Shown: in pieces, positions 10,401-30,357 of the stretch
Layout of the letters: each line of letters starts with the position of its first letter
Numbering within the stretch: the first letter of the stretch is position 1
Assembly: GCA_016787295.1 (NCBI GenBank)
Contig: JAEUUX010000035.1
Coordinates: 1 to 33,683 of the forward strand
Direction of reading: 5' to 3'
Length of the DNA: 33,683 nt
Origin: Chitinophagales bacterium
GTDB taxonomy: Bacteria > Bacteroidota > Bacteroidia > Chitinophagales > UBA2359
Position numbers and translations under genes: made by a program
The notes under the pieces: generated by a model
The model's input: only the letters and a program-made list of their open reading frames with translations
Told to the model about the DNA's origin: nothing
Database searches by the model: none

Positions 10401-12299
10401 ACTCAAAACAATAATCCTATCCCTACCATTACGGGAGATGATGCCATCTGCGCCGGTCAAAGTTCCACTTTGAACGCAGGAAGCTATAGTAGCTATGTGT
10501 GGAACAATGTTGCCAATTCCGCTACTATTAATGTGGGAGGTGGTACGTATAGTGTAACGGTGACGGATAGCAACGGTTGCACGGGTACAGATAGTTTTGT
10601 AGTAACAGAAAACCCTAACCCCACACCGACCATAACGGGCGATGATGCTGTATGTGCAGGACAAAACTCTGTGTTAGATGCAGGTGCTTATAACGCTTAT
10701 ACTTGGTCAAATGGTTTGGGTAGCAATGCAACAGTTATTGTTACGCAAAGCAATACGTATACCGTCACAGTGACAGATACGAATGGTTGTACGGGTACTG
10801 ATAACTTTGTATTTACGGCTAATCCTAACCCCTTGCCAACCATAGATGGAGCTTCTGTGATTTGTGTGGGCGAAAGTAGCACATTGTCAGCAGGTAACTA
10901 TAGTAGTTATACTTGGTCAAATGCAATGAATACCCCTACTATTAGTGTTTCAGTTGCTGGTAGCTACAGTGTTACAGTGACTGATGCGAATGGTTGCACA
11001 GGTACAGACGATTTTGCAGTAACGGTAAATGCTCCGCCGATAGCTACGGTTATCACTTGCACAGAAACAACATACACTTCAGTTACCTTCAGTTGGAATG
11101 CTGTGGCAGGTGTTACGGAATATTTGGTGAGCATCAACAATGAGCCAGCCCAAACAATTGCAGGTACAACTACCATTGTGGACGGTCTCTCACAAGGACA
11201 AACCGTGACGATTAGTGTCGTTGCAATAGGTACGAATGATTGTGGGAATAGCCCCGAAGCTACCCAAACCTGTACGACCGATGTGTTTGTTTGTCCTGAA
11301 GCAAGTTTTACTATTAACAACCTCGATGATACTTATTGCATAGACTTTGGTACAGTAAACCTCGATTTTGTTCCTAATGGTGGAACCTTTAGCATCGATG
11401 GTAGCGAAATTGTTGGCAGTAGTTTTGATACTAACGAACAGGGTGTAGGGGAGCATACGATTTTATATGAATACATTAATCCCGCTAATGGGTGCTTCTA
11501 TGACACAATGGTAGTTGTCAATATCGTTCCGTTACCAGCGCCTTTGTTTACTTTGCCCGAAGGTGTGTGTATTGCTGAACCCTTTGCTCCGACCTATACA
11601 GGCAGTTCTGTAGTGGAATATACTTGGGATTTTGGGGAAGCAGGTAGCCAAAACGTTGCGCAACCTATTCCTATCAGCTATACGACCAACGGTACAAAAG
11701 TGATAAACTTGGAGGTTGTTGATGTTAATGGTTGTGAAAACAATGTATCTAATACGCTTATTGTATCATCGGCAACAGCAAACATTACGGCGAATCCCGA
11801 TTCTGTTTTGTTTGGCAATGCGGCACTATTGCAGGCTATTGGCACATCGAGTTCGGGTGGTAGTGTGAACTATGTTTGGTCGGTATCTGATTCAACTTGT
11901 GCCAACGTCACCTGTTCGAACATTAGCGTTAGCCCTACCAACGAAACCCTATATACCGTGACGGTGACAGATAGTTTTGGTTGCACAGCTACGGCGCAAC
12001 AAGCCATTGGTGTATATTATGAAAATTTGGTCATTATCCCAAGTGCGTTTTCACCCAATGGTGACTCCCAAAACGACCAATTCCAAATATTCGGACGTAA
12101 TATTAGCGAAGTAGAATTGGCAATATATGACCGTTGGGGACAAAAAATGTATGAAGGACAAGGGAATAGCACTTTGAACTGGGACGGTACTTATAAGGGT
12201 AAAGTCATGGAAATCAATGTGTTTGTCTATTATGCCACTGTTACTTTTATCGATGGCAAGCGCGAGTTCTTTAAAGGTAATGTTACTTTGGTGCGCTAA
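4434..12299 (+). CDS. Giant T9SS-secreted adhesin-like protein with about 26 Ig-like repeats and a type B sorting domain
   Basis: A 2621-aa protein. The ATG at 4434 gives a proper signal peptide (MKKILLCFAILSLPFVPTLDA); a TTG six bases earlier was not used. Residues of about 55-350 form a Cys-rich head. Residues of about 355-2200 are about 26 tandem units of about 71 aa with consensus PSISG-x-x-x-x-C-x-G, Y-x-WSNG, GTYTVTVTDxxGCTGT. These resemble bacterial Ig-like/SprB-type repeats. Then come a fibronectin-III-like segment (about 2203-2285), a PKD-like domain (YTWDFGEAGS) and, from about residue 2532, a CHU_C gliding-associated C-terminal domain (IIPSAFSPNGDSQNDQF, YDRWGQKMYEG), the type B T9SS signal. 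Likely role: surface adhesin exported by T9SS. The last repeats are the most alike, with a three-repeat unit duplicated at an offset of 615 bp. It ends before strong hairpins. Confidence 0.9.
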   Translation: MKKILLCFAILSLPFVPTLDAHPNAFHRLFALPFGARPNPTPPIAALPPYTDADLCPFINAGPDQSNCAAGCVTLTADFAEINNTSNYQIQDIAYAPYPFNSPTATNVIVDLDDIWSGVVNMPFSFCFYGSVYNQLVIGANGVITFNTNYANTYCVWPINNGLPSPTMSGNPFTNVICAPFHDIDPSVGFDPNRIRWHLEGSAPCRKMVITWRNVPMYSGACNSQLATQQIVLHETSNAIDTYIQNKPICGSWNGGQAIHGIQNAAGTVARIVPGRNNNSQWSTSNEGKRFIPTGTPAYAITWTANGATVGNGASINVCPTQTTNYIAQITYTKCNGNTLTVSDTVRVNVAGLANAAINGNTTICNGQATTLTATGGGTYQWSTGSAATSISVNSANTYTVTVTGANGCTATATTIVTVAANLSPSISGTTAICQGTNTILSANAGFSTYSWSNGMNGQSISVGGAGTYTVTVSSASGCTGTASVSVSVNPNPSPSISGTPTFCQGSSTTITASNGFNSYTWSNGGNSQSISVSNTGTYTVTVSNAAGCTGTAQYSVTANPLPSPSISGNNAICAGANTTLVAMGGGTYLWSSGQATNSINVSPNSNTVYIVTVTSPQGCTATAQTTVTVNAPPAASASGGGNVCSGGIISLTASGGGTYVWQGAGITPVTANQQNPAIPNAVAGMSGTYTVTVTSPEGCTATAQVSVNVSDCACPNPPTVSTSGGGQICAATSFDITATIGGGATTVTWTSSGSGTFSNGGTGTTVSYTPAANETGSITITATTDDPDGAGLLCSPATTTLTLVINPIPQPNASNDGPVCNDGTANLNASGGTSYLWSGNGIDATNESLQNPTINNITTNATYIVTVTNNGCTATASTTVNVLPPPSPSITGDTELCQGESTTLTANGGLSYLWSNGATTTTIDTDISGNYGVTVTDASGCTATTETTLQINPLPTPSIDGPDQVCEGETATFAVSGFATYSWSNSANTASIDITASGTYTVTVTDAIGCSGTASKTLVINPNPPTTIIGDTQLCDGEQSTLDAGAGYIAYNWSNGAQIQLATVNTTDTYTVTVTSNGGCTQTASIQVVVNPPLTPSIDGPTGICEGASANLTIVGGNFTQYQWSDGSNTASINTSVGGTYIVTVTNAAGCSATTETNLVINPIPIIVIEGATGFCAGGFSQLTATPSGYAQYSWSNFEISQVINAFVGGDYSVTVTDQFGCTNNTQVSVAEIVLIPTIEGSTLLCNGNDTDLSVAAGFSSYEWSTGSNSNTINVNEPDMYAVTVTDALGCTGSANVNVDVVPTLPATVTAEPYLCANDTAYIDLVQEYTSYLWNTGDTIQNITSTIPGTYTVTVSDDNGCTGEGAVTIEGVVLTPVITGNTTFCISTTLSATGGAFTNYLWSTGAVSPSITTNFTGTYTVTVTNINLCTATASISVTQNANLSPSITGNTAFCDGQNSVLSTTTPFNTYAWSNAVNTPTTTVSNTGTYTVTVTDLQGCVGTATYSVTENPNPTPTITGDNSICPNETSTLSTTQSYTSYAWSSGDNTQSINVGGGTYTVTVTNQNGCTGTTIFTVVANTPPTPNIIGDNTICYNETSNLSTAQSYAAYSWSFNNSNSASITVGGGTYSITVTDNNGCTGTDDYVVTQNPAPQPTINGSTTFCANGSSVLSGGNFASYSWSTGENTANITVTNGGTYTLTVTDSNACTATATVVITVTNQLSPSIVGTPNICTGNTTIIDAGIFPNYTWSNGANTATITVGAGTYSVTVSDAGGCSGTDSFTVVENPNPTPNITGDDAICAGQSSMLNAGNYSNYTWSNTATTATINVGGGTYTVTVTDNNGCTGIDTFVVTENPNPTPNITGDDAVCVGQNSTLSAGNYSSYTWSNGLGSNATATVTQSNTYTVTVTDTNTCTGTDSFTFTANPNPTPTIGGDDAICAGQISVLSLNGFATYSWSSGENSASINAIGGTYTVTVTDNGCTGTDTFVVTQNNNPIPTITGDDAICAGQSSTLNAGSYSSYVWNNVANSATINVGGGTYSVTVTDSNGCTGTDSFVVTENPNPTPTITGDDAVCAGQNSVLDAGAYNAYTWSNGLGSNATVIVTQSNTYTVTVTDTNGCTGTDNFVFTANPNPLPTIDGASVICVGESSTLSAGNYSSYTWSNAMNTPTISVSVAGSYSVTVTDANGCTGTDDFAVTVNAPPIATVITCTETTYTSVTFSWNAVAGVTEYLVSINNEPAQTIAGTTTIVDGLSQGQTVTISVVAIGTNDCGNSPEATQTCTTDVFVCPEASFTINNLDDTYCIDFGTVNLDFVPNGGTFSIDGSEIVGSSFDTNEQGVGEHTILYEYINPANGCFYDTMVVVNIVPLPAPLFTLPEGVCIAEPFAPTYTGSSVVEYTWDFGEAGSQNVAQPIPISYTTNGTKVINLEVVDVNGCENNVSNTLIVSSATANITANPDSVLFGNAALLQAIGTSSSGGSVNYVWSVSDSTCANVTCSNISVSPTNETLYTVTVTDSFGCTATAQQAIGVYYENLVIIPSAFSPNGDSQNDQFQIFGRNISEVELAIYDRWGQKMYEGQGNSTLNWDGTYKGKVMEINVFVYYATVTFIDGKREFFKGNVTLVR

Positions 12300-17230: not shown

Positions 17231-18703
17231 CTACCAAGGTTTTTTGGTTTTCTTAACTTTGGGACCTTTCATTTCTTTACCGTCGGGGCTACCTACGCGA
17301 ATCATTGCGCAACGGAAACCGATAGTAGAAGAAGCCAAATCTTCGTCCATATAACGACGTGTACCGGGAGACAAATAATATGCCAAGTCTTTCCAAGAAC
17401 CACCTTTTACCACGCGCGATTTGTCGCTGATAAGGGTTGTTTTGTCATCATATACAGTAATATCTTCGTCACCATCACGATAGTTGATTACGTTCGATTT
17501 ACGGAAGTTGGAACGATTACCAATTTTGTCTTCGTCCAATTCTTTGTACTGAATACGACCTAAACTGTCTTTGGGGGCAACATTACCTTCGGCATCTTTA
17601 GCAACGGTTTTGAAGACGTTACCACGGAAAGGATTAAAATCTTCTGAATCGTAGTTGGTCAATGGACGATAAACATCTAAACACCATTCGCTCACGTTAC
17701 CTGCCATATTATACAAACCAAAATTGTTGGGCATATAAGATTTTACAGGGGCTGTGATTTCGGCTTTATCGTTCAAGTTACCTGCGATACCCGCATAGTC
17801 ACCTTGACCACGACGGAAGTTAGCCATCAAATCACCTTGCCATTTACCATGTTCAGGATTACGAACAGATGAGCCTTTCCAAGGATAAATTTGGCGGTCA
17901 TCATAGCGTTCTTCATCAGGAGCAGATACTACTGCCAAAGCAGCGTATTCCCATTCTGCTTCTGTAGGAAGGCGATAGTCGGGCAATAAGATACCGTCAT
18001 CAAAACGAACACGACGCGTAGGTTCGCCATTGGGGTCTAAGTTAGGCATACCTTTTTTCTCCATCGCCTCGTATTGTCCCAACAAATATGCTTCTGTATT
18101 GAAGTTGTCGGCACCATATTGGTTAGGGTTGAACTCGATAACACCTTCTTGAATAAGCATACTTTCGTTCACACGGTCGGAACGCCATTTGCAATATTCA
18201 TTAGCCTGCAACCAACTCACGCCCACCACAGGATAGTCGTTGTAAGCGGGGTGACGGAAATAGTATTTCACAAATTGCTCGTTATAAGCCAATTCCTCGT
18301 TCCAGACTAAGGTATCAGGTGTGGCTTTTTCGACTAATTGTGGATAAGTTTCGCCAAATGTACGACCTAACCAGTGTAGGTATTCGCGATAGTGTACGTT
18401 GGCAACTTCTGTTTCATCTATGTAAAAAGAAGATACAGAAGCACGTTTAGGAATGTTGTCAAATTCGTAGGTTACGTCTTCTTCCACGTTGCCCATAACG
18501 AATGTTCCTCCCGGTACCAACACTAAACCGGGTCCTGTTTTTTGCTCTTTGTTTTTGGCAACTTCAAAGCCTCCCATATTTGGGTCATTGTAGTTCCAGC
18601 CAGTAGCAGAAGATTGCTCCGTTTTTTTGGATTTGCACGAAAACATCGTGAGAGTTAGCAAAGCCAATAGGAGCATCGGAGAGGTTCTAACCACGTTCTT
18701 CAT
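17231..18703 (-). CDS. gldJ: Gliding motility lipoprotein GldJ
   Basis: A 490-aa lipoprotein. The signal peptide ends TMFSC with Cys23 as the lipid site. After TGWNYNDPNMGGFEV (a typical GldJ opening) comes a full FGE/SUMF1-type domain: LVPGGTFVMGN (62-72), VVGVSWLQANEYCKWRSDR, RLPTEAEWEYAAL, NMAGNVSEWCLDVYRP and VVKGGSWKDLAYYLSPGTRR ending in IGFRCAM. In gliding Bacteroidota GldJ is an outer-membrane-associated lipoprotein needed for the gliding machinery and for stability of GldK and T9SS function. It is not known to be an enzyme. The presence of T9SS cargo genes on both sides fits. No other gld genes are adjacent. The segment from ELDEDKIGNRSNF to KTTLISDKS is a GldJ-like insertion before the last motif. 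Confidence 0.92.
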   Translation of the reverse strand: MKNVVRTSPMLLLALLTLTMFSCKSKKTEQSSATGWNYNDPNMGGFEVAKNKEQKTGPGLVLVPGGTFVMGNVEEDVTYEFDNIPKRASVSSFYIDETEVANVHYREYLHWLGRTFGETYPQLVEKATPDTLVWNEELAYNEQFVKYYFRHPAYNDYPVVGVSWLQANEYCKWRSDRVNESMLIQEGVIEFNPNQYGADNFNTEAYLLGQYEAMEKKGMPNLDPNGEPTRRVRFDDGILLPDYRLPTEAEWEYAALAVVSAPDEERYDDRQIYPWKGSSVRNPEHGKWQGDLMANFRRGQGDYAGIAGNLNDKAEITAPVKSYMPNNFGLYNMAGNVSEWCLDVYRPLTNYDSEDFNPFRGNVFKTVAKDAEGNVAPKDSLGRIQYKELDEDKIGNRSNFRKSNVINYRDGDEDITVYDDKTTLISDKSRVVKGGSWKDLAYYLSPGTRRYMDEDLASSTIGFRCAMIRVGSPDGKEMKGPKVKKTKKPW

Positions 18704-20910: not shown

Positions 20911-22737
20911 CTAAAACAAACTCACCCGCAAAGTACGATGTTGTGTAGGTGTATGGATTTGAAGCAGATAAACACCCGCTGTCACTTGTCCACTAAAAGG
21001 CATGGTGATTTCATTTTCTCCCATACTTACAACATTAGACATTTGCTCAACCATTTGCCCCATGCTGTTGTACAGTTGCAAAGTGGCAGTTTCTTCGGTG
21101 TCGGTAGTGTATTGTATTTTCAAAGCATCGCCGATTTGTTGGGCTGTTAGGTTTGTGGGCATTTCCAAGTCCGTCGTTTTACCCGAATTGCCACAACCTG
21201 TGGTAGTGAAACTTCCTGTAGTACTGAAAGATGTATAACCATTGTTGCTAAATCTGCCACAGACTTTGTATTGATAGGTTGTACAGGGTTGTAATGTACT
21301 AAATGTTTGGGTAGTTCCATTCGCGTTAATTGTTTGCCAATTGCTCGAACCTGCCACACGTCCTTTGATAACATAACTCACTGCATCAGGTACGCTTGTC
21401 CAGCTAAGGGTAGCACTTTGGTTGGTGATATTGCTCACCGTAACAGTAGGAGGAGCAGGAGTAGCAGTATCTACACAAGAAGTAAAATCGGCAGAACTAA
21501 ATGTTCTGTAGGGGGAACAATACTGAAAAGTTGGAATAGCACCCACAAAATTATTAGGGCAAGCACTAAAATACTTTAATTTGGGTAATTGCGTAAATTC
21601 GGGTATAGCACCTATAAGCCCGTTGGATTTTAAATATAGTGCATACAACTTTGGTAGGTTTAAGTTAGGTATACTTCCACTTAGTGCATTGTGGTGTAAA
21701 TGAAGATAACGCAAATTAGGCAGATTAAAATTAGGTATACCACCACTTAGTTGATTGTTATTTAAAACTAATTTTTCCAAATTGGGCAGATTAAAATTGG
21801 GAATACTACCGCTTAATTGATTATTATTTAAATATAGGTCGTTTAACTGTGGTAGATTAAAATTAGGTATACTACCACTTAGTTGATTGTTAGATAAACT
21901 AAACCAATATAAATTGGGCAGATTAAAATTGGGAATACTACCGCTTAACAGATTGTCATTTAAATATAGATATCTCAAACTGGGCAGATTAAAATTAGGA
22001 ATACTACCGCTTAACAGATTGTCATTTAAATATAGTTGTCTCAAATTGGGCAGATTAAAATTAGGTATACTACCACTTAGTTGATTGTTATTTAAAACTA
22101 ATTTTTCCAAATTGGGCAGATTAAAATTAGGTATACTACCGCTTAGTTGATTGTTAGATAAACTAAACCAATATAAACTGGGCATATTAAAATTGGGAAT
22201 ACTACCGCTTAGTTGATTGGCAGATAAATCAATCCATTGTAAACTGGGCATATTAAAATTGGGAATACTACCGCTTAGTTGATTGTTAGATAAACTAAAC
22301 CATTGTAAACTAGGCGTATTAAAATTGGGAATACTACCGCTTAACAGATTGTCATTTAAATATAGATAGCTCAAACTGGGCATATTAAAATTAGGTATAT
22401 TACCGCTTAGTTGATTGTGGTCTAAATGTAGACTTTGCAAATTAGGGAACTCAAGATTAGGAAGGCTACCAGATAGATTATTTAACGCTAGAGCTACACC
22501 TATAATTGAACAATTTGATACTGCTACACCATACCAATCACCAACAGGCACGTTAGGATTGTTCCAATTGCCTTTGTGATCCCAGTTATCGCCATTGGTA
22601 GCATTGTACAAAGCTGTAAGATTTTGCTGCTCAACAAGCGGCAAGTCTGCAAAATAACATTGCCCCATAAGGTTGGTGGAGAAGAATGTAAGAAAAAACG
22701 CCATAATAGGCACGAAAAGAATAGAAATCTGTTTCAT
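20911..22737 (-). CDS. Secreted leucine-rich-repeat protein, T9SS type A (copy 1)
   Basis: A 608-aa protein. The signal peptide is MKQISILFVPIMAFFLTFF up to MGQ. An LRR N-cap (LYNATNGDNWDHKGNW, as in plant-type LRR N-terminal domains) precedes 13 full 22-aa repeats with consensus LPNLxxLxLxxNQLSGSIPNFN, flanked by degenerate ones. A fibronectin-III-like domain follows (VTVSNITNQSATLSWTSVPD, then YQYKVCGRFSNNGY). The end is a type A sorting tail (LQLYNSMGQMVEQ, GVYLLQIHTPTQHRTLRVSLF). The repeat scaffold is nearly identical at DNA level with a 66-bp period; only the residues on the likely concave face change. Probably a surface or secreted binding protein; the ligand is unknown. It is the last of three paralogous genes. 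Confidence 0.9.
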   Translation of the reverse strand: MKQISILFVPIMAFFLTFFSTNLMGQCYFADLPLVEQQNLTALYNATNGDNWDHKGNWNNPNVPVGDWYGVAVSNCSIIGVALALNNLSGSLPNLEFPNLQSLHLDHNQLSGNIPNFNMPSLSYLYLNDNLLSGSIPNFNTPSLQWFSLSNNQLSGSIPNFNMPSLQWIDLSANQLSGSIPNFNMPSLYWFSLSNNQLSGSIPNFNLPNLEKLVLNNNQLSGSIPNFNLPNLRQLYLNDNLLSGSIPNFNLPSLRYLYLNDNLLSGSIPNFNLPNLYWFSLSNNQLSGSIPNFNLPQLNDLYLNNNQLSGSIPNFNLPNLEKLVLNNNQLSGGIPNFNLPNLRYLHLHHNALSGSIPNLNLPKLYALYLKSNGLIGAIPEFTQLPKLKYFSACPNNFVGAIPTFQYCSPYRTFSSADFTSCVDTATPAPPTVTVSNITNQSATLSWTSVPDAVSYVIKGRVAGSSNWQTINANGTTQTFSTLQPCTTYQYKVCGRFSNNGYTSFSTTGSFTTTGCGNSGKTTDLEMPTNLTAQQIGDALKIQYTTDTEETATLQLYNSMGQMVEQMSNVVSMGENEITMPFSGQVTAGVYLLQIHTPTQHRTLRVSLF

Positions 22738-22811
22738 AGGAAATGATTTTTTTAAGTTTAAAAAAGATAGATGGAGTTGTATTTTGGAGTATGGAATAAT
22801 GAAATGCTGGG
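22738..22811. repeat. Duplicated intergenic spacer, copy A
   Basis: The 74 bases between LRR copies 1 and 2 appear identical by eye to those at 24642-24715 between copies 2 and 3. The duplication unit therefore included the spacer. No terminator is seen, so the LRR genes could be cotranscribed. Confidence 0.85.
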
Positions 22812-24641
22812 TTAAAACAAACTAACGTGCAAAGTACGATGTTGTGTAGGTGTATGGATTTGGAGTAGATAAACACCCGCTGTCACTTGCCCATTCAAAG
22901 GCATAGTGAAGTCGTTTTCTCCTATGCTTACAGCGTTAGACGTTTGCTCAACCATTTGCCCCATGCTGTTGTACAGTTGCAAAGTGACGGTTTCTTCTTT
23001 ATCCGTGTTGAATTGTATTTGCAAAGCATTGCCGATTTGTTGTGCTGTTAGGTTTGTGGGTATTTCCAAGTCTGTTGTTTTACCCGAATTGCCACAACCT
23101 GTGGTAGTGAAATTCCCTACGGCACTAAAAGTTGTATAACCATTATTACTAAAAACGCTACAAACCTTGTATTGATAGGTTGTACAGGGTTGTAATGTAC
23201 TAAATGTTTGGGTAGTTCCATTCGCGTTAATTGTTTGCCAATTGCTCGAACCTACCACACGTCCTTTGATAACGTAACTCACTGCATCAGGTACGCTTGT
23301 CCAGCTAAGAGTAGCACTTTGGTTGGTGATATTGCTCACTGTAACAGTAGGTGGTGTAGGCATGGCAGTATTAACACAAACGGTAAAATCGGAAGAACTA
23401 AATGTTTTGATAGGAGAACAGTATTGAAAAGTCGGAATAGCCCCCGCAAAATTATTGGGGCAAGCTGTAAAATGGTTTAAGTTTGGTAAGTTTGTAAACT
23501 CAGGTATAGCACCTGTGAGTTGGTTATTGTGTAAACTTAGTGTGTATAAATTAGGCAGATTAAAGTTGGGTATGCTGCCACTTAGTGCATTGCGATGTAA
23601 ATGAAGGTAACGCAAATTAGGTAGATTAAAATTTGGTATGCTACCGCTTAGTTGGTTGAAATATAAATATAGTCGTTCCAAATTAGGCAGATTGAAGTTG
23701 GGTATACTGTCACTCAGTTGATTGTGGTGTAAATGAAGATATCGCAAATTGGGCAGGTTAAAATTGGGTATGCTACCGTTTAACTGATTTTTATGTAAAG
23801 ATAACCATTCTAAATTAGGCAGGTTAAAATTGGGTATGCTGCCGCTTAATTGATTGTTGTATAAACCGATACTTATTAAATTGGGCAGATTAAAATTGGG
23901 TATGCTACCGCTTAATTGATTGTTGGCTAAATCCATGCCTATCAAATTGGGCAGATTAAAATTGGGAATGGTATCTGTGAGGTAATTGTTCCCTAAAAAT
24001 AGATCTATCAAATTGGGCATACTAAAATTGGGTATACTTCCGCTTAATTGATTACCATATAGATGTAGAGTTTGCAAATTGGGCATACTAAAATTGGGTA
24101 TACTTCCGCTTAATTGATTATCAGATAGATGTAGAGTTTGCAAATTGGGCATATTGAAATCAGGTATACTACCACTTAGTTGATTTTCAGATAAATCCAT
24201 GCCTATCAAATTGGGCATATTGAAATCAGGTATACTACCGCTTAGTTGGTTGTTGCTTAAAATCATTATTTGCAAATTGGGCAGGTTAAAATTGGGTATA
24301 TTGCTACTTATGTGATTATTATATAAATATAGCTCTCTCAAATTCGGCATATCAAGATTAGGAAGACTACCTGATAGATTATTGCCATTTGAGGATAGTG
24401 TTACAACCGAACAATTTTCTACGGTTACACCCCACCACTCGCTTATGGGTACACTATAATTACCCCAGTTGTCGTTAAAATACCAATTATTACCATGGGT
24501 AGCGGTATACAAATCCGTAAGACTTTGTTGCTCAACAAGCGGCAAGTCTGCAAAATAACATTGCTGCCCCATAAGGTTGGTGGAGAAGAATGTAAGAAAA
24601 AACGCCATAATAGGCACGAAAAAAAGAGAAATCTGTTTCAT
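22812..24641 (-). CDS. Secreted leucine-rich-repeat protein, T9SS type A (copy 2)
   Basis: A 609-aa paralogue of the flanking LRR genes: same signal peptide, N-cap (LYTATHGNNWYFNDNW), 13 full 22-aa repeats, fibronectin-III-like domain almost identical to copy 1 and type A sorting tail ending HRTLHVSLF. Its repeats are more diverse than those of copy 1, with variants such as NYLTDTIPNF and NHISSNIPNF. The C-terminal half is close to copy 1 while the first residues match copy 3, which suggests gene conversion or stepwise tandem duplication. Function inferred only as surface binding. Confidence 0.9.
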   Translation of the reverse strand: MKQISLFFVPIMAFFLTFFSTNLMGQQCYFADLPLVEQQSLTDLYTATHGNNWYFNDNWGNYSVPISEWWGVTVENCSVVTLSSNGNNLSGSLPNLDMPNLRELYLYNNHISSNIPNFNLPNLQIMILSNNQLSGSIPDFNMPNLIGMDLSENQLSGSIPDFNMPNLQTLHLSDNQLSGSIPNFSMPNLQTLHLYGNQLSGSIPNFSMPNLIDLFLGNNYLTDTIPNFNLPNLIGMDLANNQLSGSIPNFNLPNLISIGLYNNQLSGSIPNFNLPNLEWLSLHKNQLNGSIPNFNLPNLRYLHLHHNQLSDSIPNFNLPNLERLYLYFNQLSGSIPNFNLPNLRYLHLHRNALSGSIPNFNLPNLYTLSLHNNQLTGAIPEFTNLPNLNHFTACPNNFAGAIPTFQYCSPIKTFSSSDFTVCVNTAMPTPPTVTVSNITNQSATLSWTSVPDAVSYVIKGRVVGSSNWQTINANGTTQTFSTLQPCTTYQYKVCSVFSNNGYTTFSAVGNFTTTGCGNSGKTTDLEIPTNLTAQQIGNALQIQFNTDKEETVTLQLYNSMGQMVEQTSNAVSIGENDFTMPLNGQVTAGVYLLQIHTPTQHRTLHVSLF

Positions 24642-24715
24642 AGGAAATGATTTTTTTAAGTTTAAAAAAGATAGATGGAGTTGTATTTTGGAGTATGGAA
24701 TAATGAAATGCTGGG
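24642..24715. repeat. Duplicated intergenic spacer, copy B
   Basis: Matches 22738-22811 base for base as far as I can compare by eye. It also shares its gene-proximal 45 or so bases with the leader of LRR copy 3 (from 26795), where the sequence then diverges. Confidence 0.85.
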
Positions 24716-26794
24716 TTAAAACAAACTAACCCGCGCAGTACGATGTTGTGTAGGTGTACGGATTTGAAGCAGATAAACACCCGCTGTCACTTGCCCACTA
24801 AAAGGCATGGTGATGTCGTTTTCTCCTATGCTTACAGCATTAGACATTTGCTCAACCATTTGTCCCGTGCTGTTGTACAGTTGCAAAGTGGCAGTTTCTT
24901 CTTTATCCGTGTTGAATTGTATTTGTAGGGCGTTGCCGATTTGTTGGGCTATAAAAACATTAGTCATAATAATAGTCTCGTTAGGACAACCTCTTGTCAT
25001 ACAAGTTCCCATTTCGCTGAAGGTCGTATAACCATTATTACTAAATACGCCACAGACTTTGTATTCATAATTAGTACAAGGCAGCAAATTATCAAATACT
25101 GTGCTATTGGTAGCCGAATCAAAAAATTGCCAACCCTCTTCGCCCGCAATACGTCCTTTGATGACATAACCCGTAACATCAGGCACGGCTGTCCAGTTAA
25201 GGGTGACTCTTTGGTCGGTAATATCAAACACCGTAACAACAATTAAATTTGGGTCGCTATCAACACAAGAAGCGAAATCGGAAGAACTAAATGTTTTATT
25301 GGGATGACAATACTGAAAAGTTGGAATAAAGCCCACAAAATTATTAGGACAAACAGCAAAAGACTCTAATTTAGGCAATTGCATAAACTCAGGTATAGCA
25401 CCTGTGAGTTGATTATTATCTAGGCGTAGTTCTTCTAGCATTGGTAGATTAAAATTAGGTATATTGCCACTAAGTTGATTGATATGTAAATGTAGTACGA
25501 TCAAATTGGGCAGATTAAGATTGGGTATACTGCCGTTTAATTGATTTTCCTCCAAATGTAGATGACGTAAATTAGGCAGATTAAAATTGGGTATACTGCC
25601 ACTTAGATGATTGTCTTCTAAATATATCCATTTCAAATTAGGCAGATTAAAATTAGGTATACCGCCACTTAGTTGATTGTCGTACAAGTATAATTGTTGC
25701 AAATTGGGCAGATTAAAATTGGGTATACTGCCACTTAATTGATTATTGCCTAAACCCATACTTTGCAAATTAGGTAGATTAAAATTGGGTATACTGCCAC
25801 TTAATTGATTATTGCCTAAACCCATACTTTGCAAATTAGGTAGATTAAAATTGGGTACGTCGCCATTTAATTCATTGTTCCATAAAAGCATATCTTGCAA
25901 ATTAGGCATACTAAAGTTGGGTATATTACCACTCAGTTGATTACAAAATAGGTGTAATTGTTGCAAATTAGGTAGGTTAAAATTGGGTATGCTACCGTTT
26001 AGTTGATTGGTATTTAAAATTAAACCTTGCAAATTGGGCATATTGAAATTAGGTATGCTACCACTTAATTTATTACTGCTTAAATTTAGACCTTGCAAAT
26101 TAGGTAGATCAAAATTGGGTATACTACCACTTAGTTGATTGTTCCATAAAGATAGTACTTGCAAATTGGGCATATCAAGATTAGGTATGCTGCCACTTAA
26201 TTGATTATTGCCTAAACCCATGCTTTGCAAATTGGGTAGATCAAAATTGGGTATACCACCACTTAGTTGATTGTTCCATAAAGATAGTACTTGCAAATTG
26301 GGCATATCAAGATTAGGTATGCTGCCACTTAATTGATTGTTGGCTAAATATAGCTCTTGCAAATTAGGCAGATTAAAATTGGGTATGTTGCCGCTTAGTT
26401 GGTTGGTAATTACATTTAGTTGTCTCAAATTAGGCATACTAAAGTTAGGTATACTACCACTTAGTTGATTGTTCCATAAAGATAGTTCTGTCAAATTGGG
26501 GAAATCAAGATTAGGAAGGTTGCCTGATAGATAGTTGGAACTAAGTGATAGTTTCACAATTGAGCAGTTTTCTACCGTTATGCCATACCAATCATCTACA
26601 GCTACACTATAATTATTCCAATTAGTTTTGTTTGTCCAATTACTACCATTAGTAGCATTGTACAAATCTGTAAGACTTTGCTGCTCAACAAGCGGCAAGT
26701 CTGCAAAATAACATTGCTGCCCCATAAGGTTGGTAGAGAAGAATGTAAGAAAGAACGCCATAATAGGCATGAAAAAAAGAGAAATCTGTTTCAT
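24716..26794 (-). CDS. Secreted leucine-rich-repeat protein, T9SS type A (copy 3, longest)
   Basis: A 692-aa protein starting at the ATG whose product begins MKQISLFFMPIMAFFLTFF; the open frame continues upstream into the transporter gene but that part is not coding. It has an N-cap (LYNATNGSNWTNKTNW), 17 full 22-aa LRRs, a diverged fibronectin-III-like domain (VTVFDITDQRVTLNWTAVPD) and a sorting tail ending HRTARVSLF. Two adjacent repeats around 25720-25860 are identical at DNA level (the NLQSMGLGNNQLSGSIPNF unit twice), a sign of recent 66-bp slippage or unequal exchange. It is the first gene of the trio and probably the oldest lineage. Ligand unknown. Confidence 0.9.
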   Translation of the reverse strand: MKQISLFFMPIMAFFLTFFSTNLMGQQCYFADLPLVEQQSLTDLYNATNGSNWTNKTNWNNYSVAVDDWYGITVENCSIVKLSLSSNYLSGNLPNLDFPNLTELSLWNNQLSGSIPNFSMPNLRQLNVITNQLSGNIPNFNLPNLQELYLANNQLSGSIPNLDMPNLQVLSLWNNQLSGGIPNFDLPNLQSMGLGNNQLSGSIPNLDMPNLQVLSLWNNQLSGSIPNFDLPNLQGLNLSSNKLSGSIPNFNMPNLQGLILNTNQLNGSIPNFNLPNLQQLHLFCNQLSGNIPNFSMPNLQDMLLWNNELNGDVPNFNLPNLQSMGLGNNQLSGSIPNFNLPNLQSMGLGNNQLSGSIPNFNLPNLQQLYLYDNQLSGGIPNFNLPNLKWIYLEDNHLSGSIPNFNLPNLRHLHLEENQLNGSIPNLNLPNLIVLHLHINQLSGNIPNFNLPMLEELRLDNNQLTGAIPEFMQLPKLESFAVCPNNFVGFIPTFQYCHPNKTFSSSDFASCVDSDPNLIVVTVFDITDQRVTLNWTAVPDVTGYVIKGRIAGEEGWQFFDSATNSTVFDNLLPCTNYEYKVCGVFSNNGYTTFSEMGTCMTRGCPNETIIMTNVFIAQQIGNALQIQFNTDKEETATLQLYNSTGQMVEQMSNAVSIGENDITMPFSGQVTAGVYLLQIRTPTQHRTARVSLF

Positions 26795-26876
26795 TGGAAA
26801 TGAATTTTTTAAGTTTAAAAAAGATAGATGGATTTGTATTGGAGAACGAAATAAATGCACTTTATATTGTGCCGTT

Positions 26877-26911
26877 AGCAGCCTGTGGAGCGATATTGCT
26901 TGCAGGCTGCT
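26877..26911. terminator. Hairpin between the nucleoside transporter and the LRR genes
   Basis: Perfect 9-bp stem AGCAGCCTG / CAGGCTGCT (26877-26885 with 26903-26911), 30 bases after the transporter's stop on the minus strand. The T-run is on the plus-strand side only, so its use as a terminator for the transporter is uncertain. Confidence 0.4.
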
Positions 26912-26940
26912 TTTCTCACGACACGAAATATCATACTTTT

Positions 26941-28206
26941 TTAGAACAATATGCCCGCAATGGTAGCAGACAGATAAGAAGCCAAAGTACCGCAAATCAA
27001 GGCACGAAAACCTAAGGAAGCTAAATCGGCACGGCGTTCGGGGGCTAACTCGCCAATACCGCCAATTTGGATACCAATAGACCCAAAGTTGGCAAAACCA
27101 CACAAAGCAATGCTCACAATAGCTAAGGTCTTGGCTTGCAAAGCGTTTTGTACAATAAGGTCTTTGAGGTTGGAGTAGGCAACAAACTCGTTAGCCACCA
27201 TTTTTGTTCCCATCAAAGAGCCAGCAGTCATGATGTCTTGTGACGGAACACCCATCGCCCAAGCAAAACCCGAAAAAACGAAACCCAGAATGGTGGTCAA
27301 GCTAAATTTGCTCGCATCTACATTCATGCCTGCGTTGGCTAACAAAGTCCCAATGCCACCTAAAGCGCCATCGATAAGGGCAATAAGTGCCAAAAAGCCA
27401 ATCAACATAGCCGCTACATTCAAAGACACTTTGAGACCGTCACTCGCGCCGTGCGAAATGGCATCTACCAAATTGGAGTACTGTTGTTTGACTTCCAATT
27501 TGATTTCGCCTTTTGTTTGCGACTCCTCTGTTTCGGGATACACGATTTTGGCGATGACCAAAGCAGCAGGTGCCGCCATGATGCTCGCCGCCAGCAGGTA
27601 TTCGGCAGGCACACCAAAACTGATATAGACCGCCATCACACCGCCCGCAATGCACGCCATACTGCCTGCCATGGAAGCCAACAATTCTGATTTGGTCATC
27701 GTATTGAGGTAGGGTTTAATCATGATTTGCGCCTCCACTTGTCCTACAAACGCACTCGCCGCATTGGACAAAGCCTCGCTACCACTCACGCCCATAATGG
27801 CATGAACAACTTTTGCCACCACCACAATAAATTTTTGCATAATACCCAAATGATAGGCAATATTGACCAACACGGCTACAAAAATGATGGTTGGCGTAAT
27901 CTTGAAAAAGAAAATAAAACCCCATTGCGCACCCAAACTATTGCCCAAAACATCAGATTTCGTCAATACACCGAACACAAACTCACCGCCTTTGTCGCCA
28001 TATTCCAATACTTTGGTAATGAAATCACCGATGGCTTTAAAGATGATTTTTCCGGGAGGCGTTTTGAGGATAAACACCGCCAAAGCGATTTGTAATGCCA
28101 AACCAGAGGCTACTAAGCGATAGTTAATAGCTTTTCGGTTGTTGGAAAGGGCAAACGCAATGCCCAAGATAAGTACAAAGCCCAATAGCCCTGTTAGTCT
28201 TTCCAT
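26941..28206 (-). CDS. nupC: Concentrative nucleoside transporter (CNT/NupC family)
   Basis: A 421-aa, very hydrophobic protein with about ten membrane segments. These transporters bring nucleosides across the inner membrane with H+ or Na+. Family signatures are visible: GQVEAQIMIKPYL (155-167), where the G-Q-x-E element binds the nucleoside, SIMAAPAALVIAK (208-220), SDGLKVSLNVAAMLIGFLAL, and CGFANFGSIGIQIGGIG near the C-terminus. The length is typical of bacterial members. Ion and substrate specificity cannot be read from the sequence. The start is the ATG at 28206, about 40 bases after a good -7 box. Confidence 0.92.
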   Translation of the reverse strand: MERLTGLLGFVLILGIAFALSNNRKAINYRLVASGLALQIALAVFILKTPPGKIIFKAIGDFITKVLEYGDKGGEFVFGVLTKSDVLGNSLGAQWGFIFFFKITPTIIFVAVLVNIAYHLGIMQKFIVVVAKVVHAIMGVSGSEALSNAASAFVGQVEAQIMIKPYLNTMTKSELLASMAGSMACIAGGVMAVYISFGVPAEYLLAASIMAAPAALVIAKIVYPETEESQTKGEIKLEVKQQYSNLVDAISHGASDGLKVSLNVAAMLIGFLALIALIDGALGGIGTLLANAGMNVDASKFSLTTILGFVFSGFAWAMGVPSQDIMTAGSLMGTKMVANEFVAYSNLKDLIVQNALQAKTLAIVSIALCGFANFGSIGIQIGGIGELAPERRADLASLGFRALICGTLASYLSATIAGILF

Positions 28207-28502: not shown

Positions 28503-28531
28503 CTATGGCACACGCGGCTACACCGATACGG
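28503..28531 (+). repeat. 29-bp direct repeat, copy 1 (start of the TIR-FGE gene)
   Basis: The 29 bases beginning CTATGGCACACGCGGCTACA and ending CCGATACGG, which include the start codon and the first nine codons of the gene, recur without mismatch at 30017-30045. Confidence 0.95.
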
Positions 28532-29884
28532 GTTTTTATGGCATATTCCCGAAGAGATGCCGACTACCTAAACGAAATACGAACCGCCCTAAACCCGCTG
28601 GAACGGCGCGGCGATATTAAACTATGGTACGACGGAGTCATTGTAGCAGGACAAACATGGGACGAAGCCATAAAAGAAAACCTGCACCAAGCCGATATTG
28701 TTTTGCTGCTTTTGAGCAACGACTCTCTCGCCTCCGACTATTTCTACGAACAAGAAGTAGCCAATGCCCTTGTGCGCCACCACAAAGGCGAATGCAAGGT
28801 AGTCCCTATTATAGTGCGCGACTGCCTGTGGGAAGAAACCCAATTGGCAGACCTACAGGCGCTGCCACAAGATGCCAAACCCATTGTGGCATGGACTAAC
28901 CCCAATGCAGCCTACCTAAGTATTGCAGTGGGGGTGAAAAAAATAGTAGAAGAAATACAACATAATCCCAAACAACAATACGATGGCGAAGCGGGACAAG
29001 AGAATATAATCCAAGAAAGCAAACAAAGCACTCAACAGTGGTTGAAAAGGGGTAGTGTATTACTTTTGTGTTTTTTCTTCGCGGTTTGGGGAGTAAGCAA
29101 ATTTATAGATAATACCCTCGCCACTGTCAAGAGCAGAATAATACCTGGCTTCTGGGGAAGACAAGGAGGAGGATTTCCTCCCCTACCTCCAATTGGGGAA
29201 CCCGACCCTTTCGCCGACCAAATGGTCTTAGTACAAGGCGGCACTTTCACCATGGGCTGCACCGCCGAACAAGTCGGTAACTGTTGGGACTGGGAAAAAC
29301 CCATCCATCAAGTAACGCTAAGTAGTTTTTATATAAGCCAATACGAAGTAACCCAAGCACAGTGGCGCGCCATAATGGGCAATAATCTCAACTATTTTAA
29401 AGGCTGTCAGCAATGCCCTAAATCGGAAAGTTGGGATAAGATTCAAACGTTTTTGGAAAAACTAAACGCCCAAACGGGTAAAAATTACTGCCTACCGACC
29501 GAAGCCGAATGGGAATATGCCGCTCGTGGAGGCAATAAGAGCAAGGGCTACAAATATGCAGGCAGTAATGATATAGATAAAGTAGCTTGGTATGACGGCA
29601 ATAGTAACGGCAAAACTCATCCCGTAGGACAAAAACAAGCCAATGAATTAGGACTGTACGATATGAGCGGTAATGTATATGAATGGTGTGGTGATTGGTA
29701 TCGCAACGATTATTATGCAAATAACTCTGCTAATAACCCCAAAGGTCCCAGCATGGGTTCTAACCGTGTGATGCGCGGTGGGGCGTGGTACTTCAATACA
29801 GAACACTGCCGTTTGTCCTATCGTTTCTTCTGCCGTCCGTACGAAAACTTTGGCATCATCGGCTTTCGTCTCGCAGTGAGGTAG
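28505..29884 (+). CDS. TIR - transmembrane - FGE/C-type-lectin-like protein, candidate DGR target
   Basis: A 459-aa protein from the ATG at 28505; an upstream TTG would fall in the promoter. Residues 8-150 are a TIR domain: RVFMAYSRRDADYLNEIRTAL, WYDGVIVAGQTW, ADIVLLLLSNDSLASDYFYEQE with Glu82 or Glu84 as the likely NAD-hydrolase Glu. Residues of about 184-200 are one membrane segment, then a Pro/Gly linker. Residues 238-459 are an FGE-sulfatase fold: MVLVQGGTFTMG, CLPTEAEWEYAARGG, LYDMSGNVYEWCGDWY, RVMRGGAW. The last part (424-455) has the fixed frame RGGAW...TE.CR.S.R...RP.E....GFR, with Y, F, H, Y, F, F, C, Y, N, F, G, I at the intervening places, mostly NNC/NNT codons, as in DGR variable regions. 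The TIR probably faces the cytoplasm. The enzyme residues of true FGE were not found, so the C-terminal part is likely a ligand-binding module. Confidence 0.85.
   Translation: MAHAATPIRVFMAYSRRDADYLNEIRTALNPLERRGDIKLWYDGVIVAGQTWDEAIKENLHQADIVLLLLSNDSLASDYFYEQEVANALVRHHKGECKVVPIIVRDCLWEETQLADLQALPQDAKPIVAWTNPNAAYLSIAVGVKKIVEEIQHNPKQQYDGEAGQENIIQESKQSTQQWLKRGSVLLLCFFFAVWGVSKFIDNTLATVKSRIIPGFWGRQGGGFPPLPPIGEPDPFADQMVLVQGGTFTMGCTAEQVGNCWDWEKPIHQVTLSSFYISQYEVTQAQWRAIMGNNLNYFKGCQQCPKSESWDKIQTFLEKLNAQTGKNYCLPTEAEWEYAARGGNKSKGYKYAGSNDIDKVAWYDGNSNGKTHPVGQKQANELGLYDMSGNVYEWCGDWYRNDYYANNSANNPKGPSMGSNRVMRGGAWYFNTEHCRLSYRFFCRPYENFGIIGFRLAVR
29774..29869 (+). other. Putative DGR variable region (VR) at the 3' end of the TIR-FGE gene
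   Basis: Codons 424-455. TAC, TTC, AAT, CAC, TAT, TTC, TTC, TGC, TAC, AAC, TTT, GGC and ATC occupy places where template repeats of FGE-type DGR targets usually carry AAC or AAT; the codons between (CGT, ACA, GAA, CCG, GGC TTT CGT) encode conserved frame residues. This is the pattern left by adenine-directed mutagenesis. No template repeat or reverse transcriptase gene is in the window, so this is inference. Confidence 0.5.
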
Positions 29885-29921
29885 TTCTGTTCATTTGGCA
29901 TTTTCCATTGAGCAAACAAAC

Positions 29922-29994
29922 AAGTGTTGTGGTAGCGGTTGCGTAGTCTGCCTAAGCGGAGCAGGCAGCAAGCTACCGCTGTACTACAACACTT
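29922..29994. other. Large imperfect hairpin/cruciform downstream of the TIR-FGE gene
   Basis: Outer arms 29922-29939 and 29975-29994 pair over about 18 bp with a two-base bulge and one G-T pair. An inner stem CTGCC/GGCAG (29948-29952 with 29964-29968) adds to it. It begins 37 bases after the stop codon. It may terminate transcription, be a REP-like element, or be the stem-loop that often lies just after DGR variable regions. No T-run follows. Confidence 0.6.
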
Positions 29995-30016
29995 TACAAA
30001 GAATGGGTGCATCGGT

Positions 30017-30045
30017 CTATGGCACACGCGGCTACACCGATACGG
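30017..30045 (+). repeat. 29-bp direct repeat, copy 2 (orphan start of a TIR-FGE gene)
   Basis: Perfect copy of 28503-28531. Here the ATG and the same nine codons (MAHAATPIR) are followed at once by TGA and AT-rich DNA. It looks like the remnant of a deleted paralogous gene or a footprint of recombination. The preceding GCATCGGT and the ACCGAT inside the repeat form a short inverted repeat. Confidence 0.9.
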
Positions 30046-30135: not shown

Positions 30136-30357
30136 ATGCAAGTTGTATTAAACATTAACAACGAAGCCGATTGGCTCGCTTTATTGCCATTACTTAGTCG
30201 TTTGCAAATTTCGTATACTGCCCACACAGAAACGATAGACTATATTGATGAACAAACCTATCAACATACTATAGCCCAACATAGTTTGGCGGCAGCTTAT
30301 GGTAATAACGAACCCGATTATAACCTAAACGATATACCTCTGTCGCAGGTGCAATAG
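30136..30357 (+). CDS. Small hypothetical protein
   Basis: A 73-aa open frame with a good start context (AATACC before ATG). It begins MQVVLNINNEADWLALLPLLSRLQISY, an amphipathic pattern often seen in short Bacteroidota proteins that precede toxin-like genes. The C-terminal half (TYQHTIAQHSLAAAYGNNEP) is not recognised. No toxin gene follows: the next 190 bases are non-coding and contain repeat-like fragments. It may be a lone antitoxin-like or remnant gene. Function is not assigned. Confidence 0.5.
   Translation: MQVVLNINNEADWLALLPLLSRLQISYTAHTETIDYIDEQTYQHTIAQHSLAAAYGNNEPDYNLNDIPLSQVQ

Follow-up and report, generated by a model that had tools for sequence, protein, structure and literature searches.

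A TIR–FGE receptor gene of a Chitinophagales bacterium with the codon imprint of a probable former diversity-generating retroelement target

The window, meaning the whole stretch of 33,683 nucleotides that was analysed, carries a gene that probably encodes a membrane-anchored TIR receptor from a lineage of diversity-generating retroelement (DGR) targets, with a sensor tip that would have been diversified formerly and is now fixed. This DGR ancestry is drawn from the NNY imprint of the tip (codons ending in C or T), the conserved 3' flank with its motif, the presence of DGRs in sister genera and TvpA as the nearest solved structure. The traces of mutagenesis appear to stem from the gene's past and not from an ongoing process, unless the machinery sits in a gap of the assembly.

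Domain architecture and relatives in the genome

The original prediction of a fusion of TIR domain, membrane segment and FGE-type domain was borne out by an open frame with Pfam TIR_2 and FGE-sulfatase matches and a hydrophobic stretch between them (Table 1). The ATG start is the one at which paralogue starts align (MTPPSTPIRIF against MAHAATPIRVF).

Table 1. Features of the gene and its 3' flank (positions in the window)
Feature	Position	Strand	Basis
TIR / membrane segment / FGE gene	28505–29884	+	Open frame, 459 aa; start backed by paralogues
TIR domain, residues 10–119	28532–28861	+	Pfam TIR_2, E 1.1e-14
Hydrophobic, membrane-like segment, residues 183–201	29051–29107	+	Hydropathy mean 1.94, most hydrophobic 19-mer
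FGE / C-type-lectin-like domain, residues 238–457	29216–29875	+	Pfam FGE-sulfatase, E 3.4e-46
Variable-region-like tip RGGAW...IIGFR, 32 codons	29774–29869	+	Register matches family DGR templates; 11/12 template-Asn columns NNY
Conserved 3' flank (gene end, stop codon, non-coding)	29861–30010	+	Near-identity to C71 and C151
GTTCAT	29889–29894	+	Same offset as in 6/9 verified DGR targets examined
TGAGCAAA, second motif common to some other FGE flanks	29909–29916	+	TGAGC[AT]AA, 10/74 flanks
Imperfect inverted repeat (hairpin) 3' of stop	29922–29994	+	C71 has one too

The TIR part is matched by the PADLOC ThsB model over residues 10–169 (E 2.4e-40). A weak alignment to Cat1 (E 0.0011) pairs its E84 with the EL-motif Glu of that protein, which we take to be a catalytic residue; the Glu position is kept, and the domain is a putative NADase effector. 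Positive charges flank the membrane-like segment on either side, so the topology with TIR inside and FGE outside is a presumed one.

The FGE/C-type-lectin fold with its variable tip at the C terminus is present according to Pfam, sequence and fold matches. The closest solved structure by sequence is TvpA (PDB 2y3c), at 4.4e-36, compared with 1e-21 for the best FGE enzyme. The structure prediction proposed earlier for the FGE part also agreed, since TvpA, which we take to be a DGR variable protein, ranks first in the fold search (7.6e-16), by a small margin over PvdO (1.6e-14) and FGE (3e-14). The AlphaFold model has a mean pLDDT of 74.3 and a pTM of 0.53, and with such modest scores the fold match to TvpA is supportive only.

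Eleven FGE matches occur in the genome of the window (G000; 5.42 Mb, 296 contigs, 98.3% complete). Besides the window gene they comprise the TIR-FGE genes C71 and C151, the kinase-FGE gene C282, a 1190-aa open frame in C174, a shorter gene in C33, GldK at C238:26967, a gliding-type gene at window 17231–18703 which we take to be GldJ-like, and one broken gene at C238:10919–11557, which accounts for three of the matches (within 10922–11557). TIR (C71 and C151) and protein kinase (C282) were assigned by Pfam, and the PADLOC ThsB model matches both C71 and C151. By the same hydropathy measure, a membrane-like segment is found in C151 and none in C71. A tree of 46 FGE bodies places the window gene in a group with genes from other genera (support 0.90), away from C71 and C151; verified DGR targets are spread through the tree among genes with no known template.

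Several features were observed around the gene. An exact 29-base direct repeat lies at window 28503–28531 and 30017–30045, so that the beginning of the TIR gene is found again 1.5 kb further on, past the gene; by pattern search its core (up to two mismatches) occurs in these two places only in the genome, and the repeat may have been left behind by a lost tandem copy. An ORF of about 73 aa at window 30136–30357 has no Pfam match and no evident partner, and gives the impression of an antitoxin. Upstream, window 20911–27103 holds three adjacent leucine-rich-repeat genes with near-identical repeats and signal-peptide-like starts.

The variable tip and its 3' flank

The DGR-type variable frame claimed for the last 32 codons was recovered: the 32 codons from position 29774 (RGGAWYFNTEHCRLSYRFFCRPYENFGIIGFR) are in register with the translations of DGR templates from the same family. 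Twelve columns were used for testing, namely those with AAY in at least four of five family templates; a sixth template, found later, has AAY at all 12. At these columns the gene reads TAC, TTC, AAT, CAC, TAT, TTC, TTC, TGC, GAA, TTT, GGC and ATC. As the original prediction had it for the places of template AAC or AAT, 11 of the 12 end in C or T, with GAA as the single exception (binomial p of about 0.008 for this gene alone, against a share of 0.55 at variable codons elsewhere in the domain).

When only tips of 96 bases are taken in, NNY codons make up 47 of the 48 pooled columns of four G000 tips (the window gene, C71, C151 and C282), 95/96 in eight verified DGR targets and 12/12 in a ninth. 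The corresponding counts are 123/228 in 19 GldK genes of the family genomes, a main control that represents one conserved lineage, 20/36 in three GldJ/K-like tips (two of them also among the 19 GldK) and 9/12 in the C174 tip. Tips with no known template reach 195/228 (19 tips of the family) and 236/276 (23 tips of other taxa). Since these are also rich in NNY, part of the signal may come from a residue preference of the FGE fold.

Within the four G000 tips, the eight other variable columns are NNY in 18 of 32 cases, that is, NNR in 14/32 versus 1/48 at the template-Asn columns. At the 12 columns the differences among the four genes are 0.71 at the first codon position, 0.65 at the second and 0.28 at the third; variable codons outside the tip give 0.45, 0.41 and 0.56 in the same order. 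A permutation test on the third base gave p 0.0017 against variable codons outside and p 0.09 against invariant codons outside; the four genes are paralogues and not independent, so these p-values overstate independence. The first and second positions are variable and the third base is C or T, which is the pattern expected of a former DGR target. Near-random first and second bases with a retained third base are the expected residue of adenine mutagenesis in AAY codons.

Direct comparison with templates gave a different result from the adenine-confined mismatches that had been predicted. The window tip differs from six family templates at non-adenine positions too (21–26 mismatches of 63–67), and it is therefore not a present copy of any of the six. 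Eight true target–template pairs show 0–2 non-adenine mismatches of 63–66 and 11–18 adenine mismatches of 29–32, compared over 95 bases and with the G019 target left out because its tip is one codon shorter. The four intact G000 tips also differ mutually at non-adenine positions, so that no single present template explains all of them. A TIR-FGE gene of a relative, G003:C569, was considered as a present target of the G003 DGR and rejected, with 16/64 non-adenine mismatches to the G003 template.

Starting at the GFR codons, the window gene matches C71 in 96 of 100 aligned bases and in 47 of the following 50, compared with 369/543 (68%) in the domain body and 40/87 (46%) in the tip. For C151 the values are 90/100 and then 10/17 in the flank, 391/540 in the body and 43/87 in the tip. 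A genome search with the flank returned three copies only, those of the window gene, C71 and C151. Near-identity despite a diverged body indicates either that the flanks share a more recent ancestor than the bodies do or that they are under stronger constraint.

The GTTCAT motif, picked post hoc after inspection of the flanks, occurs at a like offset after GFR in nine of 74 distinct flanks (six templates included), namely in six of the nine verified targets and in the three TIR-FGE genes; these nine carriers represent four lineages. Two nulls of 300 random draws each gave means of 0.08 and 0.29, with a maximum of 2. The motif is present in targets of G002, G003 and one of two G016 loci, and absent from those of G010 (one of two examined), G019 and G016:C131, as well as from the kinase-FGE gene C282 and the 19 GldK flanks. 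The count for the second motif stands against a null mean of about 0.1. The hairpin was rejected as a published DGR cruciform, being longer, more distant and differently built than the hairpin rule used for comparison, as given in the portion of the source drawn on (PMC3240598).

Reverse transcriptase and template searches

The original prediction placed the retroelement at another locus, and this part found no backing in the assembly, where neither a DGR reverse transcriptase (RT) nor a near-identical adenine-rich template was detected. An RVT_1 profile search of G000 gave no match, and BLAST with one family DGR RT and a profile built from five family DGR RTs both returned nothing at E up to 10. 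Because RVT_1 does detect these five RTs (E 5.7e-15 to 5.6e-27), its lack of matches in G000 is informative for the assembled part.

RVT_1 matches occur in 12 of the 20 family genomes (G000 is one of the 20), and five have complete DGRs (G002, G003, G010, G016 and G019), which consist of one RT type, a template and FGE targets; G003 has four such targets. Near one of these, the G016:C131 locus, a TIR-iSTAND gene and an ATPase gene, MoxR-like by impression, were observed. The claim that the window gene is a DGR target was upheld as regards frame, codon chemistry and sister-genus FGE targets with templates and RTs, and not as regards current activity.

Templates were searched with a model built from five templates and run over the 20 family genomes; 150 of 2296 first-look G000 candidates were scored. 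The model recovers the sixth template, which lay outside its training set (G016:C18, 73 bits). This template adjoins a caspase-FGE target with 0/64 non-adenine and 13/32 adenine mismatches, and no RT lies in the 11 kb around it, an arrangement that would need trans action. No template resembling those of the relatives was found in assembled G000. The best-scoring G000 sequence among the matches listed, at 41 bits, comes from the tip of the broken C238 gene; the list does not include the window tip. A pattern search of G000 gave 60 matches with two or three mismatches versus 33 in the reversed control, and none with zero or one.

Two template candidates were discarded. A pattern match in C281, tip-like at first, belongs to an unrelated region and was taken as chance. 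The broken C238 gene was considered as the missing template, but its homology spans the whole FGE domain and the other G000 tips show 17–37 non-adenine mismatches to its tip; no RT fragment lies within the surrounding 13 kb. The C238 tip retains NNNT and NNY and is the most template-like G000 sequence among the matches listed. Finally, no RT was found at E 1e-3 in the examined stretches of 30 public loci retrieved with the protein.

Origin of the tip and comparison with known systems

Related bacterial TIR proteins cleave NAD+ or produce a signal nucleotide. By analogy, the C-terminal FGE/lectin domain of the window protein would bind a ligand, ligand binding would gather the TIR domains in the cytosol, and the gathered domains would cleave NAD+ or make a signal nucleotide. 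The tip would once have been rewritten through adenine-directed DGR mutagenesis, as the codon and flank evidence suggests, and the DGR machinery would since have been lost or, less likely, be unassembled. Three TIR-FGE genes, one kinase-FGE gene and one broken FGE gene would then remain as a fixed set.

The tip may also be read as a natural FGE/lectin binding loop of an ordinary sensor, shaped by point mutation under positive selection and with no DGR past, which we regard as unlikely. The RGG..W..CR..R..GFR frame is general to the FGE fold, GldK included, tips of other taxa with no known template reach an NNY share of 0.86, and the lack of DGR machinery found in G000 fits this reading. However, point mutation under selection accounts poorly for first and second positions that are near random beside a third position that is the slowest of the variable codons, for the scarcity of NNR at the template-Asn columns compared with other variable columns of the same tips, and for a flank motif common to verified DGR targets. 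Less probable still is a live DGR target in trans, whose tip would go on being rewritten by an RT and a template that the assembly has missed. It is favoured by an incomplete assembly in many contigs, by a flank that is near-identical between diverged paralogues with identity breaking at the tip, and by the family template in G016:C18 that has no RT in the surrounding 11 kb. Against it stand the three empty RT searches, made with an RVT_1 profile that does find the five family RTs as one of the three, the absence of a relative-like template from G000 and the non-adenine differences among the four tips, which would require several templates. We are just as doubtful that the tip belongs to a live, or very recently live, hypervariable TIR immune receptor whose flank stays near-identical between paralogues with long-diverged bodies because an RT on unassembled or accessory DNA still acts on it.

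A membrane-tethered formylglycine-generating enzyme is very improbable. The Pfam name FGE-sulfatase and the matches of solved FGE enzymes, at 1e-21 and weaker, point to it, but TvpA is far better by sequence and slightly better by fold. We take the enzyme's cysteine pair to be C336 and C341 in human FGE. The window protein has Phe in place of the first, where its paralogues vary, and keeps only the second Cys (placed by eye in the tip alignment).

A fixed former DGR target would offer a testable case for the fate of hypervariable immune-type receptors after the loss of their mutator, with TIR and kinase sensors fixed in a genome and still marked in their codons by the earlier mutagenesis. An imprint test built on template-Asn columns, NNY share and slow third bases could reveal former DGR targets in genomes that retain no retroelement. 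In sister genera of the same family, DGRs diversify FGE sensors that are joined to caspase, STAND-like and other parts.

Among known systems, TvpA, the Treponema denticola variable protein 1, differs from the window gene in having no TIR domain, and the window tip in being without a template match. The TIR domain that matches Thoeris ThsB (PADLOC PDLC00420) here shares its protein with a membrane-like segment and an FGE domain, and the gene is not filed as Thoeris. The DGR targets of the five relatives (G002, G003, G010, G016 and G019) share the FGE lineage, register and NNY tips of the window gene; those scanned, in G002, G003 and G016, bear M48-like, nSTAND3-like, caspase or Pfam-less long or short regions, and none of the verified ones is itself a TIR-FGE gene.

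In the excerpts drawn on, cyanobacterial DGR variable proteins carry, as here, a C-terminal lectin/FGE-type domain on signalling or death domains, their N-terminal parts being kinase, caspase-like or TIR-like; RT-distant paralogues exist, and it has been proposed that diversification parts may be removed after a good variant has been selected (PMC7517822). In comparison with the proteins of those excerpts, the assembly studied here has no detected RT, the TIR gene has its own membrane-like segment, and the host is a Bacteroidota-type bacterium, as its gliding genes and Saprospiraceae hits suggest. The sections consulted on Thiohalocapsa PB-PSB1 and clade 5 DGRs describe putative antigen sensors diversified by DGR: FGE/CLec sensors are fused to TIR, caspase-like, kinase, STAND and MoxR parts or lie close to them, degenerate loci and trans action occur, and one target bears both CHAT and TIR domains (PMC10907252). 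Targets described there have matching templates, whereas none was found for the window tip. FGS domains are reported to occur with DGRs in ternary conflict systems in a partial text of another study (PMC7159879), and the portion of the main text of a global DGR survey that was drawn on contains no word starting with TIR or FGE (PMC8144416). TIR-like domains on DGR targets, dispersed paralogues and the idea of loss after selection are already in print, and the window gene joins this known type.
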